Below, one piece after another: positions 17,289-57,432 of a stretch of 64,000 nucleotides of DNA. A model generated the notes under the pieces. That model was not told where the DNA came from. It worked only from the letters and a program-made list of their open reading frames with translations, and made no database searches. The position numbers were made by a program, and so were the translations under genes. Every line of letters starts with the position of its first letter. Positions within the stretch are counted from its first letter, which is position 1. Origin of the DNA: Halosimplex halophilum (GTDB lineage: Archaea; Halobacteriota; Halobacteria; Halobacteriales; Haloarculaceae); the NCBI RefSeq assembly GCF_004698125.1, contig NZ_ML214297.1, forward strand, positions 2,082,891-2,146,890, written 5' to 3'.

Positions 17289-18788
17289 TCACCGCTCGAC
17301 GGGCTCGTAGACGAACCGCTCGACCCGGGCGGGCGTCGCCTCGGCCGGCCCCTCGTCGGCGACGGCGTAGGGGCCGACCACGACGCCGGTGAACCCGCCC
17401 GCGACCTCCGTCGCGAGGTACTTCGGGCGCGCCTCGGCGACCGGTTCGCCGTCGACGCGGAACTCGTAGGACTCGGCGGCGGCGTCGACACCGAGCGTCA
17501 CCCGCTCGCCGACCGGTTCGCGCGCGAGCACGTCGGTCGCGTCCCCGACGGTGACCCTGACCAGGGCCGTCCGGTCGTCGCCGTCACAGACGACGCCCAG
17601 TTCGTAGTGGTGCTCCTCGTCCATGACGAGCGCCAGCCCCGCCTCCTCGCCGGGGTCGGGGTCGAATACGATGTCGGCGCGGACCCGGCAGTCGAAGTGC
17701 GTCTGCCGGCGCGCGAGGAAGGTGGTCCCCTTCTCGTCGAGCGTCTCGGGGCCGCCCCGGAGGACGAGGCCGTCGCCGGTGAACGCGTAGCGGTCGCGGT
17801 CGGGCGTCCGCCGGTAGCAGAACTCGACGGGCCGTCCCTCCGCGAAGTCGGTGTCGGTGTGCTCGACGGGGTTCGGGTCGGCGTTCGCAGGGTCGGCGTC
17901 TCCCGGTAGCGCGGCCGCGTCGATCTCCGCCGGGACCTCCGCACCGTCGACGACCGGCCAGCCGTCCGCCCAGGCGACGGGCGCGAGGAACGTCTCGCGG
18001 CCGAGGTGGTGCCAGCCGGGGAAGCCGCCGCGGGGGCGGATCCCCAGGCAGACCAGCCACCAGTTGCCGTCGGCGTCGGTCACGAGGTCGGCGTGGCCCG
18101 TCGCGTGTACGTCGCGGTAGAAGTCGTCGCGGTGGGTGAGGACCGGGTTCTCGGGGTGGGGCTCGAACGGCCCCGTCGGGTCGTCGCTCCGGCCGACCGT
18201 CACCGAGTGGCCGGTGTGGGTGCCGCCCTCGGCGGCGACGAGGTAGTAGGTCCCCGCCCGCTCGTAGATGTGGGGCGCCTCGGCGTGGGGGTCCTCGTGG
18301 CCGGTCCAGACGGTGCGCCGTTCGCCCAGTTCGCCCGTCTCCGGGTCGATCTCGGCCTGCTCGATCCCGCGGTCGGTGTCGGTCGTGAAGTAGGTGAAGT
18401 AGGCGGTGTCGCCGTCCCAGAAGAGGTCAGGGTCGATGCCGGGCGCGTCGACGTACACGGGGTCGGACCACTCCCCCGCCGGGTCGTCGGCGGTGACGAG
18501 GAAGTGGCCCTCGCCGCTGGTGTTCGTCGACGTGAGGTAGAATGTGCCGTCGTGGTGGCGCAGGGTGGGCGCGAAGATCCCGCCCGAGGCCCGCGCATCG
18601 CGGGTATCCAGTTGCGACTCGCGCGCGAGCGCGTGTCCGATCGGTGCCCAGTCGACCAGGTTCTCGCTCCGGTAGAGCGGCAGCCCCGGGAAGTACCCGA
18701 AGGAGCTCGTCGCCAGGTAGAACGTCTCGCCGACCCGGCAGACCGAGGGGTCGGGGTGGAAGCCGGGCAGGACGGGGTTGGTCGGCAT
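17289..18788 (-). CDS. Glycoside hydrolase family 43 (beta-xylosidase/arabinofuranosidase-like)
   Basis: 499 residues. A five-bladed propeller domain (about 1-300) carries the family's three acids: Asp13 in GFHPDPSV, an Asp in [11 protein letters not shown], and Glu in [14 protein letters not shown]-terminal beta-sandwich (about 315-495; [16 protein letters not shown] to [14 protein letters not shown]) is of the GH43 XynB type. No signal peptide, so it should act inside the cell on imported oligosaccharides from plant or algal xylan/arabinan. No sugar transporter or other glycosidase lies beside it here. Family confident; substrate undetermined. Confidence 0.9.
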
Positions 18789-18896
18789 ACCACAGCGCTC
18801 GGCGGGCCGGGTGGTAACTCCTGCGGACCCTCGTACCGCCCGGGGAGTCGGTGCGGGATAGAAAGGCAGTTACGCGCCCCCTGCCTCGGGGAGACC

Positions 18897-19235
18897 ATGA
18901 AGCAGGCCATCGTCGCCCGCGCCGACCTCGGGATGGGCGAGGGGAAACTCGCCGCGCAGGTCGCCCACGCCTCGCTCATGGCCTACGAGGACGCCGACCG
19001 GGGGGCCGCCAGCGAGTGGAAGGGGAGCGGCCAGAAGAAGGTCGTCCTCCGGGCCGACGGCGAGTCCCAGCTGTTCGAACTCGCGGACAAAGCCGAGCGC
19101 GAGGGGCTGCCCCACGCCGTCGTCCGCGACGCCGGCCACACGCAACTCGAACCGGGCACCGCCAGCGCCCTGGCCGTCGGCCCCGCCCGCGACGACCTCG
19201 TCGACAAGGTGACCGGGGACCTCTCGCTGTACTGA
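18897..19235 (+). CDS. pth2: Peptidyl-tRNA hydrolase, archaeal Pth2 type
   Basis: 112 residues. Releases tRNA from prematurely dropped peptidyl-tRNA. Pth2 features: [26 protein letters not shown] (conserved Lys and Gln-x-x-H), [16 protein letters not shown], and [21 protein letters not shown]. Length is normal for the family. Followed two bases later by a strong hairpin. In many archaea pth2 neighbours translation or truD genes; here it precedes the proteasome operon. Confidence 0.95.
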
Positions 19236-19236
19236 A

Positions 19237-19260
19237 ACCACGCGACCACGGTCGCGTGGT
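19237..19260 (+). terminator. Hairpin after pth2
   Basis: Perfect 11-base stem ACCACGCGACC / GGTCGCGTGGT with a two-base loop, starting two bases after the stop codon. No T-run follows directly. Likely an RNA 3' end or stability structure separating pth2 from the psmA promoter. Confidence 0.6.
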
Positions 19261-19289
19261 CGGTCGTCCGACTCGCACAACCGGCAAGT

Positions 19290-19299
19290 GTTTTTATAC
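19290..19299 (+). promoter_or_regulatory. TATA box of the proteasome operon
   Basis: GTTTTTATAC about 50 bases before the psmA ATG, predicting a short leader of roughly 20-25 bases. Confidence 0.55.
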
Positions 19300-19345
19300 G
19301 ACTATCCCTAACCCCAGGTTAGTCACGACGACTCAGTGACGCACT

Positions 19346-20092
19346 ATGCAGGATCAGAACCAGCAGGCGTACGACCGCGGGACCTCGATCTTCTCGCCGG
19401 ACGGACGCCTCTATCAGGTCGAGTACGCTCGGGAGGCGATCAAGCGCGGCACCGCCAGCGTCGGGGTTCGGACCGCCGACGGCGTGGTGCTCGCCGCGGA
19501 CCGCCAGGTTCGCTCGCCGCTCGTCGAGCAGGAGAGCATCGAGAAACTCCACCGCGTCGACGACCACATCGCGGTCGCGAGCGCGGGCCACGTCGCCGAC
19601 GCGCGCCAGCTCGTCGACTTCGCGCGCGAGCAGGCGCAGGTCAACCGCCTGCGCTACGACGAACCGATCGGCGTGGAGGCGCTGGCCAAGGAGGTCACCG
19701 ACTACATCCAGCAGTACACCCAGAGCGGCGGCGTCCGCCCGTTCGGCGTGGCGCTGGCCATCGGCGGCGTCGACCCCGACGGTACGCCGAAGCTCTTCGA
19801 GACGGACCCCTCCGGGACCCCCTACGAGTGGCAGGCGACCGCCATCGGCGGGAACCGCGAGCGGCTCATGGGCTTTCTCGAAGACGAGTACCGCGACGGC
19901 ATGGACCTCGACGCCGGGGTCGCTCTCGCGCTGGAGGCGATCGGCGAGGGCGATGAGGACGGCGCGGTCGACGCCGGGGCGGTCGAGGTGACCGTGGTCG
20001 ACACCGAGACCCATCGCGTCCGCTCGCTGGCGCCGGACGAGATCGAGTCACACCTCGCCGACCTGGACCTCGGAGGTGCGACCGATGAGTAG
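19346..20092 (+). CDS. psmA: Proteasome alpha subunit
   Basis: 248 residues. Forms the outer, gate-controlling rings of the 20S proteasome. Typical N-terminal gate and signature YDRGTSIFSPDGRLYQVEYAREAIKRGT, then VGVRTADGVVLAADRQVRSPL. The C-terminus is acidic with a final helix; no clear HbYX-type feature is expected in the core subunit. Overlaps psmB by eight bases, so the subunits are translated together. Confidence 0.97.
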   Translation: MQDQNQQAYDRGTSIFSPDGRLYQVEYAREAIKRGTASVGVRTADGVVLAADRQVRSPLVEQESIEKLHRVDDHIAVASAGHVADARQLVDFAREQAQVNRLRYDEPIGVEALAKEVTDYIQQYTQSGGVRPFGVALAIGGVDPDGTPKLFETDPSGTPYEWQATAIGGNRERLMGFLEDEYRDGMDLDAGVALALEAIGEGDEDGAVDAGAVEVTVVDTETHRVRSLAPDEIESHLADLDLGGATDE

Positions 20093-49977: not shown

Positions 49978-50481
49978 CTACCGGTTCAGCGCGACGACGA
50001 GCAGCGTCGCGGCGATCAGGAGGACGAACACCGTGGTGACGGGCTGGCCGGTCGGGCCGACCGCGAAGAGGACGAGGCCGAAGGCCGCGGTGACGAGGCC
50101 GACGACGGCGCCGACCATCGCGTGGAGGTTCTCGGCGCGGACTGTGTCGGCCTCGGCGCCGAGCTGGCGGCCCAGCGAGACGGCGTTGGTGGCGGCGTCC
50201 CAGGCGACGACGGCGGCGACCGTCCCGAACAGGACCGCGGCCGCGGGCGCCTCCGACAGCGCCGCGAGCGCGACGCCGACGAACGCGACGGCCCCGCCGG
50301 CGTCGACGGCGCGGTGGTTCGCCCGCCGAACTCCCGCGAGCAACACGGCCGTCCCGAGCGCCGCCACGGCCGCGCCCGCGGCGCTCGCGACCAGCGCCAT
50401 CGCCGCCGCCGTCGCGCCCGCGACGCCCGAGACGACCAGCGAGTGCCGGCCCGGGCGGCGGGTGACCTCCGTCCCGCTCAT
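49978..50481 (-). CDS. Hypothetical membrane protein at the end of the DUF58 operon
   Basis: 167 residues, about five membrane segments (SLVVSGVAGATAAAMALVAS, AVAALGTAVLLAGV, GAVAFVGVALAALSE, LFGTVAAVVAWDAATNAVSL, VFVLLIAATLLVVAL). ATG overlaps the DUF58 stop (ATGA). It contains AENLHAMVGAVVGLVTAA, a polar helix that may contact partners. Haloarchaea-specific in appearance. Confidence 0.72.
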   Translation of the reverse strand: MSGTEVTRRPGRHSLVVSGVAGATAAAMALVASAAGAAVAALGTAVLLAGVRRANHRAVDAGGAVAFVGVALAALSEAPAAAVLFGTVAAVVAWDAATNAVSLGRQLGAEADTVRAENLHAMVGAVVGLVTAAFGLVLFAVGPTGQPVTTVFVLLIAATLLVVALNR

Positions 50482-52034
50482 CCGGACCACCGCCTGCGCG
50501 CGCGTTCGAGCGCCTCGGCCAGCCGCTCGTCGCCGCCCCAGTCGACGACCCGCACGTCGCTGCCCCGCAGGTCGTTCAGCCGGTTCGACCGGTCGACGGC
50601 CGCCAGCCGCCGCCCCGGCGTGTCCGACGCCGTCGGGTCCGGGCTGAGCACGGTGACGGCGTGGCCCCGGGCGTGCAGCGAGCGGGCGATCACCGCGCTC
50701 GTGTCGTCGGGCATCGGCGAGACGAACACGACCTGGGCGTCGTCGTCGAGCCGCTGGGACAGCCGGCGCAGCCGGAGCCGGACGTACACCCGCCCGTCGG
50801 GCGGCAGCGGCGACAGCGCCGGGTGGGTCGACAGCAGCTCCCGGGCGCGGGCGCGGTGGGTCGGCCCCGACCCCGGCGACAGCCAGACGCTCTCGGCCGA
50901 AAACGCCGCGATCCCGACGCGGTCGCCCGTGTCCAGCAGCGAGTTGAACACCCGCCGGGCGGCGTCGATGCCGCGGTCGACCGCGTGGGGCCCGTCGTCG
51001 CCGGTCTGGAGGTACGCCTCCGGCCGCAGGTCGAGGACGACGACCACCGTCGCCATGCGCTCCTCGCGGAACTCCATGGTCGTCAGCGTCCGGTCGCGGG
51101 CGTAGGTGTTCCAGTCGATCCGCGAGAGGGGGTCGCCGTGCTGGTACTCCCGCAGCGACGCGAACTCCGTGCCCTCGCCGGAGGAGTCCGTCGGGACCCG
51201 ACCCGTGTACGGCGAGGTGAGCCCCCGCAGCGGGACCGTGTCCGTCGCGTCGACCGGCGCCAGGCAGGTGATCGCCGCCCGTTCCGTCTCGACGTCGAGC
51301 TCGCGCTCGCGGCTGCCGCTGGCGTTGCGCGCGAGCACGGTCAGCCCCTCGAAGCGGTAGGCGCCCCGCCGCGCGAGCACCTCGTAGGAGAACGTCATCC
51401 GCGAGCCAGGCCGGAGCGCGGTCGCCGCCCGCGCCGGCCCGTCGGTGACCGCCAGCGCCTCCGGCACCTGCTCGACGACCCGCAGGTCCGGCAGGACCGC
51501 CTCGCCGACGTTCTCGACGACGACCGTCACCTCCACACGGTCGCCCGGCTCGGGCTCGTCCTCGGAGAGGCGCCGCTCGACGGCCAGCGCCGGCTCGGGC
51601 GCCTCCGTCGTGTTCGCGTACGCGAGGTAGCCGACGCCGGCGACGGCCGCGAGCATGAGCGGCCGCGAGCGGACGAGCGCGCCCAGCCCGGCCGAGCAGA
51701 AGACCAGCGCCGCGAACCCCACCCAGTGGTTCGTCGAGCGGACCCGCGAGGAGCGGACCGACACCGCCGAGGGCCCCGGCGTCTCCGCGTCCGCGCCCGC
51801 CGCTCCCCCGGCTGTCGCCGCGGCCGCCGTTCCCGTCTCCGCCCCCGCTCCGTCCCTTCCGCCCGCTCCCGCCGACGGCGACTCGGTCCCGTCGCCAGCG
51901 TCGACCGACGGCTCGCCGGCCTCGTCCATCACCGCACGGCCGCCGTCCGGCCGCTCCGGGGCCGCCCGCTCGGGGTCCCAGTCCTCCGGATCCGGCCGCT
52001 CGCCGTCCGGCCGTCCGGGCTCGTCCTCACTCAT
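50478..52034 (-). CDS. DUF58 (VWA-like) domain protein, membrane-anchored
   Basis: 518 residues. An acidic disordered N-terminus (1-100) precedes two close membrane segments (WVGFAALVFCSAGLGALV, LMLAAVAGVGYLAYA), a beta-sandwich (VERRLSEDEPEPGDRVEVTV), then DUF58: FASLREYQHGDPLSRIDWNTYARDRTLTTMEF is the diagnostic block, followed by a VWA-like fold (VVVVLDLRPEA, GDRVGIAAFSAE). In bacteria DUF58 proteins pair with MoxR ATPases and transglutaminase-like proteins. Overlaps both neighbours. Confidence 0.9.
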   Translation of the reverse strand: MSEDEPGRPDGERPDPEDWDPERAAPERPDGGRAVMDEAGEPSVDAGDGTESPSAGAGGRDGAGAETGTAAAATAGGAAGADAETPGPSAVSVRSSRVRSTNHWVGFAALVFCSAGLGALVRSRPLMLAAVAGVGYLAYANTTEAPEPALAVERRLSEDEPEPGDRVEVTVVVENVGEAVLPDLRVVEQVPEALAVTDGPARAATALRPGSRMTFSYEVLARRGAYRFEGLTVLARNASGSRERELDVETERAAITCLAPVDATDTVPLRGLTSPYTGRVPTDSSGEGTEFASLREYQHGDPLSRIDWNTYARDRTLTTMEFREERMATVVVVLDLRPEAYLQTGDDGPHAVDRGIDAARRVFNSLLDTGDRVGIAAFSAESVWLSPGSGPTHRARARELLSTHPALSPLPPDGRVYVRLRLRRLSQRLDDDAQVVFVSPMPDDTSAVIARSLHARGHAVTVLSPDPTASDTPGRRLAAVDRSNRLNDLRGSDVRVVDWGGDERLAEALERARRRWSG

Positions 52035-52623
52035 CGTCGTCCCCCGTTCGCTCGCCGGCGTCCCGCCGGTCGTCGGACTCCAGCAGCCGCTCGATGGCGT
52101 CGACCGCCCGGACGGCGCGGCGCTTGAACGGCGACTCCCGGTCGAGCAGCTCGCGCAGGCGGTCGGTCGTCGGCGCCTCCGGTACCCGGCCGGTGAAGAA
52201 GGCGGCCGCGAACGGGTCGTCCGTCCAGGTCCCCTCGTCGAGCGCCCGCCGGGCCTCCTCCGGCGAGCAGCGCTCGCGCCGGCGGATCGTCTCCGCGGCC
52301 ACGTCGCCGATCTCGTCGCTGATGCGGCGGCGCTCGGACTCGTTGAACCGCGTCAGCCGCAGCCGGCCGAGCCGCCGGTCCAGGTCGTCGCCCGGCGTCG
52401 GCAGGTCGACGGCCAGCTCCGCGTCCGGCGTCTCCGCGTAGTCGAGGTCGGTGTGGCGCCGGCGCTGGACCTGCGCCACCGCCCCCAGGAGGAGGACCAG
52501 CCCGACGACCAGGACGAACGGGTCGCCGGTCGGCAGCGGCGTCGTGATCTGTGGGACGGCGAGCGCGGCGAGCCCGACGACCCCCAGGATCACCCCCAGC
52601 GTCGCCGTGACGCTCCGGCTCAT
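52027..52623 (-). CDS. Membrane protein of the DUF4129-DUF58 operon
   Basis: 198 residues. Two N-terminal membrane segments (TLGVILGVVGLAALAVPQIT, FVLVVGLVLLLGAVAQVQ) and a cytoplasmic helical part (RLTRFNESERRRISDEIGDVAAETIRR). Found between the DUF4129 and DUF58 genes, overlapping each (4 and 8 bases). No independent function known. Confidence 0.8.
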   Translation of the reverse strand: MSRSVTATLGVILGVVGLAALAVPQITTPLPTGDPFVLVVGLVLLLGAVAQVQRRRHTDLDYAETPDAELAVDLPTPGDDLDRRLGRLRLTRFNESERRRISDEIGDVAAETIRRRERCSPEEARRALDEGTWTDDPFAAAFFTGRVPEAPTTDRLRELLDRESPFKRRAVRAVDAIERLLESDDRRDAGERTGDDDE

Positions 52624-53636
52624 CCGCCGTCGCCCCTCCCGCCGGCGTCCGCGTCACCGCCGGCGTCCGCGTCGGCGTAGGTCGCCTCGATCCGCCGCAG
52701 CGTCTCGACGGCCGCCCGCTCGCGATCGGCGGTCGGTTCCGCCCCTCCGTAGCGCACCTCCTCGAAGATGTCGGTGAGCCGGGCCACGTCCGCCGGGTCC
52801 ATCCCCGCGGCCGTCGCGGCCGTCGCGAACTCCGCGGGCGTGCTCGACTCCGGCCGGTCGACCGCGAGGTGCTCGGTCATCGCCGCCCACGCCCGGTAGA
52901 CCTCGTTCTCGAACTCGTCGGTCTCCTCGATGCGGTCGGCCGCCCGCCCCGCGGCCGCGCCGACCGCCCGCACGTCCGCCGACGGTTCCGGCTCGGGGTC
53001 CTCGTCCTCGCCGCCGGACTCGTACTCCTCGCGCTGGTCGTGGTTGCCGGTCAGCACCAGCGCGGCGACGGCGACCAGCGTGGCGACCACGAGCACCAGC
53101 AGCGCGGCCGTCGAGAACGACGGCGCCGCGACCGTGCTCTGGCCGCCGAACAGCCCGCCGCCCTCCTGTGCGGGCCGCCCGCCGTCGGCCAGCGAGAGCA
53201 GCCCCGGGTCCGTCCGGCAGGTCGTGAAGAGCAGGTAGAGGAAGAAGCCGGGGTAGCCGACCACGAAGACGGCGGCCAGCCCCGTCGCCGCGTCGTCGAG
53301 CCAGCGCCCGACGGAGAACACCCCGAAGACCCCGAACAGCAACAGCAGCTGGACGAGCGGCTGTTTGAGCCACGGCTGGCAGAGCTGGAACGGCGTCCCC
53401 TCCTCGAAGTCGAAGTCGAGGTCCAGCGGCGAGTTCGACCGGCTCCTGCTGTCGCCGGTCGACTCCTCGGCGGGGGTGCGGTCGCCGCCCAGCTCGTCGA
53501 CCGGGCCGGTGTAGCCGGCGCCGGCCGACGGGTCCGGGTTCGTCGTCGAGTCCAGCGTCGCCGCGGCGAAGGCGATCACCGCGACGCACAGGACCGCGAG
53601 GGCGACCGTCCGGGGACTCAGACGTGACGGATCCAC
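52620..53636 (-). CDS. DUF4129-domain membrane protein
   Basis: 338 residues. A signal-anchor (RTVALAVLCVAVIAFAAATL), an outside loop of about 80 residues, membrane segments near 95-150 and 185-205, and a C-terminal DUF4129 domain (about 225-320: NEVYRAWAAMTEHLAVDRPE, SSTPAEFATAATAAGMDPADVARLTDIFEEVRYGG). DUF4129 is usually the tail of transglutaminase-like TgpA proteins; here it stands alone. First gene of the four-gene operon. Confidence 0.87.
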   Translation of the reverse strand: MDPSRLSPRTVALAVLCVAVIAFAAATLDSTTNPDPSAGAGYTGPVDELGGDRTPAEESTGDSRSRSNSPLDLDFDFEEGTPFQLCQPWLKQPLVQLLLLFGVFGVFSVGRWLDDAATGLAAVFVVGYPGFFLYLLFTTCRTDPGLLSLADGGRPAQEGGGLFGGQSTVAAPSFSTAALLVLVVATLVAVAALVLTGNHDQREEYESGGEDEDPEPEPSADVRAVGAAAGRAADRIEETDEFENEVYRAWAAMTEHLAVDRPESSTPAEFATAATAAGMDPADVARLTDIFEEVRYGGAEPTADRERAAVETLRRIEATYADADAGGDADAGGRGDGG

Positions 53637-54890: not shown

Positions 54891-55898
54891 TCAGTCCCGC
54901 CGGAGGACGACCTCGGTGGTGAACTCGACCGACCGCAGCTCGTCGAGGCTGTCGACGTCGAGTTCCCGCTCGGTGTAGCTCGCCTTCTCCGAGCGGAGGA
55001 CGCCGGTGCGGCCGTCGGCGACGAAGACCGGCTCGAAGCCGGCCGCGTCGAGCGTCTCGAGGAACTCCTCGTACTCGCCGGTCTCCCGCAGGTACCAGGG
55101 GTGGATCTCCAGGAAGAGCACCCCGAGGTCCCCGCGGTCGAGCAGCTCCGACATCCCCCGGACTACCTCGTACTCGTAGCCCTGCACGTCCATCCGGACT
55201 GCGTCGACGGCGTCGAGGGCCACCCCCCGGTCGCGGAGCAGGTCGTCGAGCCGCCGGACGGGCACCTCGACCTCGTCGACGAAGTGGTCCATCCCCATCG
55301 TGTCGCCGACGGTGCCCCAGTTGCTGTGCGTGGAGACGTGCATCGTCGTCCGCGTCGACGACGACCCGACGGCGCACCGGTGACACGACACCGACCCCTC
55401 GAACCCGTTGAGCGCGACGTTCTCCTCCAGGAGCGCGACGTTGTCCGGGAGCGGCTCGACGGCGATCACCTCGCCGTCGCGCCGGCTCAGCGCCGGGTAC
55501 TGGAGGGCGAAGTAGCCGATGTTCGCGCCCACGTCGACCACCGTCAGCGGCCCGCGGTCGTCCTCGAGTCGAGCGAGCTCCCGCCGGTAGGCCTCCGTCG
55601 CCAGCGGCTCCCTGACGCCGTCGCGCAGCAGCTCGCGGGACAGCCCCTCGTCGAGGGCGTCCACCCGCATCCGGAAGTCCAGCACGTCGAGTTCGAGGTA
55701 GCGCTCCTCGTCGTTGTCCCGGAGACGGGTGCGGAACCGGTCGGTCCCCCCGAGCAGGTCGGTGACGTACAGCGACGCCAGGCGGTACCGCGAGAGCGCG
55801 GCCAGGCCGCGGGCCACCCGCAGCCGCGACCTGACGTACGGCAGCGCCGCACGCGGGTTCGACAGGGCCGTTCGTAGCTTGGAGACCACCCGCTGCAT
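54891..55898 (-). CDS. FkbM-family SAM-dependent methyltransferase
   Basis: 335 residues. Motif I LTVVDVGANIGYFALQYPAL (about 118-137), GEVIAVEPLPDNVALLEENVALNG, and VRMDVQGYEYEVVRGM with LGVLFLEIHPWYL are the FkbM signature. These enzymes O-methylate sugars, lipids or polyketides, often in glycan clusters. Transcribed divergently from the PP-loop gene at 56122, with AT-rich promoter sequence (GTATATATGG) between them. Confidence 0.9.
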   Translation of the reverse strand: MQRVVSKLRTALSNPRAALPYVRSRLRVARGLAALSRYRLASLYVTDLLGGTDRFRTRLRDNDEERYLELDVLDFRMRVDALDEGLSRELLRDGVREPLATEAYRRELARLEDDRGPLTVVDVGANIGYFALQYPALSRRDGEVIAVEPLPDNVALLEENVALNGFEGSVSCHRCAVGSSSTRTTMHVSTHSNWGTVGDTMGMDHFVDEVEVPVRRLDDLLRDRGVALDAVDAVRMDVQGYEYEVVRGMSELLDRGDLGVLFLEIHPWYLRETGEYEEFLETLDAAGFEPVFVADGRTGVLRSEKASYTERELDVDSLDELRSVEFTTEVVLRRD

Positions 55899-56053
55899 CT
55901 GTGGTCGTGTCCACCGCGCAGGTCCGTATGAGTATATATGGCTTACACCCGCTCTATACGACTACGTTCTCCGTTCAGCAAACCGTACCGGCCGGTGCGG
56001 ACGGGTAGCGCCGAACTTACTATTTCGCCACACCGTCGAAGGGTACGACGAGC

Positions 56054-56125
56054 ATGTACGCGAATCAGTCGGTCAGGCGGCCCCGTGGCGCCGGCGGCGA
56101 GCCGGGCCGGCGGGGACGCCGATGA
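56054..56125 (+). CDS. Upstream micro-ORF (23 codons) of the PP-loop gene
   Basis: Starts MYANQSVRRPRGAGG, followed by a basic end. Its stop overlaps the next ATG as ATGA. TTACTATTTCG at 56018-56028, about 26-36 bases before its ATG, could be the promoter TATA box, making this the first ORF of the message. It is strongly basic, unlike the acidic haloarchaeal proteome, so a coupling or attenuation role is as likely as a functional peptide. Confidence 0.35.
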   Translation: MYANQSVRRPRGAGGEPGRRGRR

Positions 56126-57432
56126 CCGTCGTCGTCGGGGAACCGACCGTCGAGGGGTCGACTATCGAGTGCGAGGTCACGCCGTCGCGGGACCTCCGGC
56201 GGTTCTTCGCCGGCGACACCGTCCGCGTCGACTACGACGCCGACGTCTCCGACGTGCCGCCCGCGATCGCCGCCATCCCGGCGCTGGCCCACGTCGCGCC
56301 GGTCGCCTGGGCCAGCGGTGCCGACGTGGCGGCGCCGGCGGTCGACGGGGCGTTCCTCGACGCCCTCGACGAGGTGGGTGAGACGCTCGCGCGGATGTAC
56401 CCCGAGTTCGTCGACCCCGGGGAGATCCGGCCGGACGAGGTCGTCCCGACCGCCGACCAGAACCCGGCCGAGGCGTTCGACGACAGCGGCCTGCTGTTCA
56501 CCGGCGGGGTCGACTCCGTCGCCAGCTACGTCCGCCACCGCGAGGCGGAGCCGACGCTGATCGGCGTCCAGGGGTGGGTCGTCGGTCCCGACGAGGACGA
56601 CCGCTGGCGCGGGTTCCGCGAGCACGTCGAACCGTTCGCCGACCGCCGGGGCCTGGACTGTCGCTACGTCAGGTCCAACGCCCTCTCGGTGCTCGACACG
56701 CCGATGTTGCAGGCCCACTACAAGCGCTACGTCGACGGCGCCTGGTACAGCTCGGTCGGCCACGGCCTGGGGCTGCTCGGCCTGTGCGCGCCGCTGGCCC
56801 ACGCCCTCGGCCTCGGGACGGTCCACATCGCGGCCAGCCACACGGCGGCGTTCGACGAGCCGTGGGGCTCGCACCCGGCGATCGACGACCGCGTCCGCTG
56901 GGGCCACTGCCGCGGGAACCACGACGGGTTCGGGCTCACCCGCCAGGAGAAGGTCGAGCGCATCGCCGGCTACGTCGCGGAGACGGGCGAGCGGTTCCCG
57001 CTGCGGACCTGCATCCACGACGACGCCGGCGGGAACTGCAACGACTGCGAGAAGTGCTACCGGACGATCGCCGGGCTCGTCCTCGCGGGGCTCGACCCCA
57101 ACGAGTTCGGCTACGAGGCCGACGAGCGGACGTTCGACGAGATCCGCGCGGCCTTCGAGCGTCGGGCGTTCGTGATGGACGAGCACACCCGCTTCCACTG
57201 GGAGGACATCCAGGCTCACGTCGACATCGACCGGACGTTCCCCGTCGACGGCGCGACCGAGTTCTTCCGGTGGCTGGCGGGCGTCGACGTGGCCGCGGTC
57301 GCCAGCGAGGCGGGCCCGCGGCGCAGCGAGCGGCTGGCCCGGACCGTCGCGCGGCACCTCCCGTATCCCGTCTACGCGTCGCTGTACCCGGTCTACCGGA
57401 ACCTCTCGCGGCTCGCGCCCGGCGGCTCGTAG
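56122..57432 (+). CDS. PP-loop ATPase with QueC-like zinc site, unknown substrate
   Basis: 436 residues. A non-homologous N-terminal part (1-120) precedes the ATP-pyrophosphatase loop TGGVDS (residues 127-132, in LLFTGGVDSVASYVRH) and strands LIGVQGWVVG and CRYVRSNALSV. Cys297, Cys306, Cys309 and Cys312 (RTCIHDDAGGNCNDCEKCYRT) repeat the 9-3-3 spacing of the QueC/ExsB zinc site. QueC makes the nitrile of the archaeosine/queuosine precursor; this protein is longer and diverged, so it may activate another carboxylate or sugar. Its divergent FkbM neighbour suggests glycan or lipid tailoring (inference). Confidence 0.8.
   Translation: MTVVVGEPTVEGSTIECEVTPSRDLRRFFAGDTVRVDYDADVSDVPPAIAAIPALAHVAPVAWASGADVAAPAVDGAFLDALDEVGETLARMYPEFVDPGEIRPDEVVPTADQNPAEAFDDSGLLFTGGVDSVASYVRHREAEPTLIGVQGWVVGPDEDDRWRGFREHVEPFADRRGLDCRYVRSNALSVLDTPMLQAHYKRYVDGAWYSSVGHGLGLLGLCAPLAHALGLGTVHIAASHTAAFDEPWGSHPAIDDRVRWGHCRGNHDGFGLTRQEKVERIAGYVAETGERFPLRTCIHDDAGGNCNDCEKCYRTIAGLVLAGLDPNEFGYEADERTFDEIRAAFERRAFVMDEHTRFHWEDIQAHVDIDRTFPVDGATEFFRWLAGVDVAAVASEAGPRRSERLARTVARHLPYPVYASLYPVYRNLSRLAPGGS

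Follow-up and report, generated by a model that had tools for sequence, protein, structure and literature searches.

What does a QueC-like PP-loop protein do when its gene lies beside that of an FkbM-type methyltransferase? The gene was found in the window, that is, the whole 64,000-nucleotide stretch of Halosimplex halophilum DNA analysed here. The closest relative found for this haloarchaeal DNA is Halosimplex pelagicum. The features are collected in Table 1. The first-pass annotation had noticed a P-loop and a site of four cysteines, and both are present in the translated protein of 436 residues: translation of 56122-57432(+) gives LFTGGVDS at residues 125–132, and Cys-297, Cys-306, Cys-309 and Cys-312. 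The start codon is correctly placed at the ATG at 56122, because alignments with orthologues, among them that of H. pelagicum (86% identity), begin there. Among 18 divergent homologues from archaea, bacteria and phages, with 18–51% identity to the window protein, Phe-126, Gly-129, Asp-131, Arg-274 and the four cysteines do not vary. The dN/dS ratio of the gene against H. pelagicum is 0.37, which indicates purifying selection; two neighbouring genes gave 0.19 and 0.31. With these invariant residues and this selection, the P-loop and the cysteines are more than a chance resemblance.

Table 1. Features of the QueC-like gene and its divergent neighbour (window coordinates)
Feature	Position	Strand	Basis or remark
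QueC-like PP-loop protein, 436 aa	56122..57432	+	translation, homologue alignment, fold model
N-terminal domain, residues 1–118, not in QueC	56122..56475	+	aligns with QatC N-terminal extension in full-length fold comparison
FTGGVDS pyrophosphate-binding P-loop, residues 126–132	56497..56517	+	translation, family alignment
WGSHP motif, residues 248–252	56863..56877	+	approximate position of QueC YPDC / QatC STRTTHP; equivalence partly by eye
Four-cysteine site C297-C306-C309-C312, presumed zinc	57010..57057	+	translation, family alignment
FkbM-type methyltransferase, divergent neighbour, association not conserved	54891..55898	-	PF05050 E 3.6e-23, TIGR01444 E 5e-30

As had been proposed, the protein is a diverged relative and not the true QueC: comparison within the genome revealed a separate, canonical QueC on another contig (243 bits). 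The cysteines of the window protein are indeed spaced 9-3-3, which had been taken for exactly the QueC spacing. The genome's own QueC, however, has a spacing of 8-3-3 (C186/194/197/200), as have the other haloarchaeal QueCs aligned, and the first gap varies among the homologues of the window protein. The substrate motifs of QueC, YxQxHxxE, VPxRN and YPDC (PMC13329287), were found neither in the family alignment nor in its profile alignment to haloarchaeal QueC. Searches against Pfam, NCBIfam and PADLOC left the window protein without any match.

Homologues are present in 41 of 145 Halobacteria genomes. More distant members were detected on bacterial plasmids (Priestia, Pseudobutyrivibrio, Gloeothece, Nostoc and Gemmobacter) and on nine viral contigs (IMG/VR). 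A tblastn search of a phage genome collection revealed no homologue, and a planctomycete sample gave weak partial matches only. A scan of whole genomes with one protein returned two loci, of which that in Singulisphaera (L004) was a wrong-frame artefact. Literature searches found no paper describing this branch of the QueC superfamily, and nothing relevant on DUF6395 or on QueC together with pyruvyl transferase.

In haloarchaea, most family genes lie in a conserved locus for surface polysaccharide. An AlkP-type phosphodiesterase, a 12-TM protein and TAT-exported proteins were each found at 13 of 21 haloarchaeal loci, a polysaccharide deacetylase at 11, and a Gfo/Idh/MocA oxidoreductase and DUF362 at nine each. 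None of them occurred in 20 control regions of equal size from other parts of genomes belonging to the same order, the majority of which lie on the same contigs as the loci. One annotated locus also contains a flippase and DUF6541, and some loci contain ATP-grasp, GNAT and polysaccharide deacetylase genes.

On bacterial plasmids, the homologue has a polysaccharide pyruvyl transferase gene no more than three genes away in Priestia (as the next gene), Pseudobutyrivibrio, two Gloeothece species and Gemmobacter, and none was found within 8 kb of the Nostoc copy. The Priestia locus also encodes UDP-glucose dehydrogenase and GalU. One glycan locus on the Priestia megaterium plasmid (L082:9983-12596 and 18585-19901) holds the family gene in two tandem copies, together with the gene of a similarly built DUF6395 protein. 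A related plasmid (L083) carries spore coat genes nearby. The pyruvyl transferase was considered as a universal partner and rejected, as a home-made profile did not find it in the haloarchaeal loci; thus no single substrate-making neighbour is common to the whole family.

On the nine viral contigs (L123:3703-4989, L124:5719-6996 and L125-L131), the homologue adjoins tail-fibre, baseplate or endolysin genes. It also adjoins a flippase on L130 and an O-antigen ligase-like gene on L127 and L128. Such a position in a phage genome is typical of lysogenic-conversion genes, and the arrangement looks like lysogenic conversion.

The window copy itself is a diverged paralogue outside the main polysaccharide locus, still under purifying selection. 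In the tree, it groups with the H. pelagicum protein and one copy from genome G116, apart from the main-locus copies. A paralogue with 52% identity is encoded in the same genome, about 33 kb before the start of the window. None of the conserved marker genes of the glycan locus was found in the part of the window from 46.5 to 64 kb; the neighbours scanned are FkbM, NAD synthase, DHH, DUF58, DUF7269 and DUF4129. The DUF58, DUF7269 and DUF4129 genes form a cluster (49978-53636) on the same strand as the NAD synthase gene and downstream of it, and this cluster is common to H. pelagicum. An ATP-grasp gene (L003:3073-4302) that was not found in the window is present in the corresponding region of H. 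pelagicum; a gene of this kind adjoins the paralogue at the glycan locus (L042). H. pelagicum further has the paralogue as a tandem pair (L088 and L089, within L153), with an ATP-grasp gene a few kb away.

Matches to PF05050 and TIGR01444 confirm that the neighbour is an FkbM methyltransferase, from which a surface-glycan role had been deduced. In H. pelagicum, the FkbM gene is a remnant that retains residues 1–84 and 312–335 only (L003:9513-9848) and adjoins an intact QueC-like orthologue. No FkbM gene was found at the 20 other haloarchaeal loci of the family. As it is not conserved, FkbM was rejected as a functional partner, and the deduction based on it therefore fails. The glycan role stands via the rest of the family: it is favoured by the neighbourhoods of the homologues, although the window copy lies outside the conserved locus, and the role of this copy in particular is one that we infer.

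The architecture of the protein was approached by structure prediction. The AlphaFold2 model of the window protein has a mean pLDDT of 89. Its best match in the PDB is QatC (Z 14.9, rmsd 4.8, 296 residues, model 1–388 on QatC 4–453; VIA-align), followed by QueC (Z 12.4, 188 residues), which covers the core only (model 119–368). Other fold matches are Cap9 (Z 10.6), the nitrile synthetase ArtA (Z 9.7), LarE, TtuA and TilS. Foldseek with the model gave no match at E < 0.001, and a sequence search of the PDB gave chance-level matches only, with QatC at E 0.98. Profile comparison related the core to QueC (P 3e-6) and gave weak support for residues 37–149 against QatC (hhalign P 2.9e-4). The N-terminal 120 residues had been called unrelated, which is correct with respect to QueC; however, the full-length fold comparison places them on the N-terminal extension of QatC, with weak profile support. 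When the N-terminal domain was folded and searched alone, non-significant RNase H-like matches (Z 5.7) were obtained and QatC was not among them, so that its kinship with QatC, which comes from the full-length comparison, is moderate. According to the model, the protein would be built like QatC, with an N-terminal extension, a QueC core and C-terminal helices. Within the QueC superfamily, the family forms a QatC-shaped branch that had gone unrecognised and is related to DUF6395.

Because the homologues lie among surface-sugar genes in archaea, bacteria and phages, the enzyme is likely to attach a group to a surface glycan at the expense of ATP, and not to synthesise the modified tRNA base. On balance, we favour a zinc-bearing, ATP-dependent PP-loop ligase which tailors a surface glycan and whose substrate is not 7-carboxy-7-deazaguanine (CDG). 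A stand-alone ligase of this kind (N-type ATP pyrophosphatase) would bind ATP via the FTGGVDS loop and, judging by homology, activate the carboxylate of an acid substrate. Acid activation by such a loop is established PP-loop chemistry. Ammonia or an amine could then attack the activated carboxylate and form an amide, so the reaction would probably be an amidation or another amide ligation. The most likely substrates would come from a surface polysaccharide, namely its sugar acids, its pyruvylated sugars or intermediates of the glycan, with uronic acid or a pyruvyl ketal as candidate acids. Zinc binding and ATP-dependent activity of the window protein are presumed by analogy, and the four-Cys zinc site is probably structural, as in QueC.

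CDG is an unlikely substrate, although salvage is conceivable: neither QueC nor QueE was found in two genomes (G020, 98% complete, and G045, 97% complete and on one contig) whose usual glycan locus includes the family gene. Genomes with the family gene have QueC more often than expected (39/41 versus 69/104, p 2e-4), which perhaps reflects lineage only. Tentatively, this widespread branch may be independent of 7-deazaguanine altogether and modify glycans in a new ATP-dependent step that forms an amide (or converts an amide to a nitrile), by which temperate phages might alter the receptor glycan of their host.

A glycan-related PP-loop enzyme with another chemistry, namely transfer of an amino acid or thiol or N-acylation of an amino sugar, is the best of the alternatives and nevertheless unlikely. 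LarE, TtuA and TilS among the fold neighbours would agree with it, as would the ATP-grasp, GNAT and deacetylase genes at some loci. However, the four-Cys site follows QueC and presumably is of the QueC type, whereas LarE and TtuA have a 4Fe-4S pattern, and nothing specific speaks for sulfur transfer.

The closest fold, QatC with both of its extensions, and the distant homologues in phages may suggest protein conjugation as by QatC or Cap9, in which a 7-deazaguanine or another acid is attached to a partner protein at its N-terminal glycine, possibly in antiviral defence. We regard this as improbable. No qatA, qatB or qatD gene was found among the scanned window neighbours or at the sampled homologous loci, and the QatC models PADLOC PDLC02214 and NF041925 did not match the window protein at E 0.1, whereas a real QatC scores 640 bits against PADLOC. 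Further, the signature residues of QatC are missing, two carriers are without QueC and QueE, and the conserved neighbours are glycan genes.

Still less probable is a synthetase that converts an amide or carboxylate to a nitrile on a glycan or small molecule. QueC makes its nitrile by two ATP steps, and by analogy with QueC and with ArtA such a product is possible. Yet ArtA is no better a match than many other PP-loop enzymes, and the substrate motifs of QueC are missing. The nitrile-forming step offered by the first-pass annotation is unsupported, and the context gives no reason to expect it.

A second 7-cyano-7-deazaguanine (preQ0) synthase for archaeosine, which Halobacteria use, would account for the shared P-loop and Cys motif and is highly improbable, as the genome already has a canonical QueC, YxQxHxxE, VPxRN and YPDC are missing, and family genes are present in two genomes without QueE. 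Archaeosine loci had been named as the place where homologues would speak against a new function; none was in such a locus among all loci examined.

QueC-like proteins are not restricted to preQ0 synthesis: they catalyse protein deazaguanylation in CBASS and a further reaction in Qat. A QatC-shaped branch in polysaccharide loci and phages, also in genomes without QueC and QueE, suggests that the scaffold serves glycan chemistry as well. The family can thereby serve for comparison in the search for the substrate of QatC, and the haloarchaeal locus is a tractable archaeal locus in which the glycan ligase reading can be tested.

Among known systems, the window protein shares with QueC the PP-loop core, the SGGxDS-type loop and the C(x)8CxxCxxC site, represented by FTGGVDS and C297/306/309/312. 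It differs by additional N- and C-terminal parts and stays below the PF06508 threshold (no match to PF06508 or TIGR00364 at E 0.1), and its family is not located in preQ0 loci.

With QatC of the qatABCD anti-phage system (PDB 9y01/9y02; PMC13279940), it has in common the three-part architecture, the P-loop and the four-Cys site, and the window copy has HP at a roughly equivalent active-site loop. However, identity is only 17%, the family context is glycan and not defence, and the QatC motifs D63, D75/R80, WxR, STRT and RRA are missing. Where QatC has the STRT loop with its Thr pair, the window family has WGS[HR]P (equivalence by eye), and the Thr pair is absent.

DUF6395 (PF19932) resembles the family through the Priestia protein, which has an N-terminal part, an SGGVDS loop and a four-Cys site, is encoded in the same plasmid glycan locus and matches the window-family profile in two stretches. 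It is nevertheless a separate, weakly similar family. PHROG 1550 (‘QueC-like’, moron class) is matched weakly by the phage homologues at the Cys site and has the same ‘moron’ setting; the window protein did not match it at E 0.1.

The N-sugar amidotransferases of the WbpG group (cluster 5), finally, are QueC-superfamily enzymes in surface polysaccharide synthesis (PMC13329287). Their Cys pattern, CxxC(x)6CxC, sets them apart by the description given there, and they provide a precedent for the glycan role proposed here.
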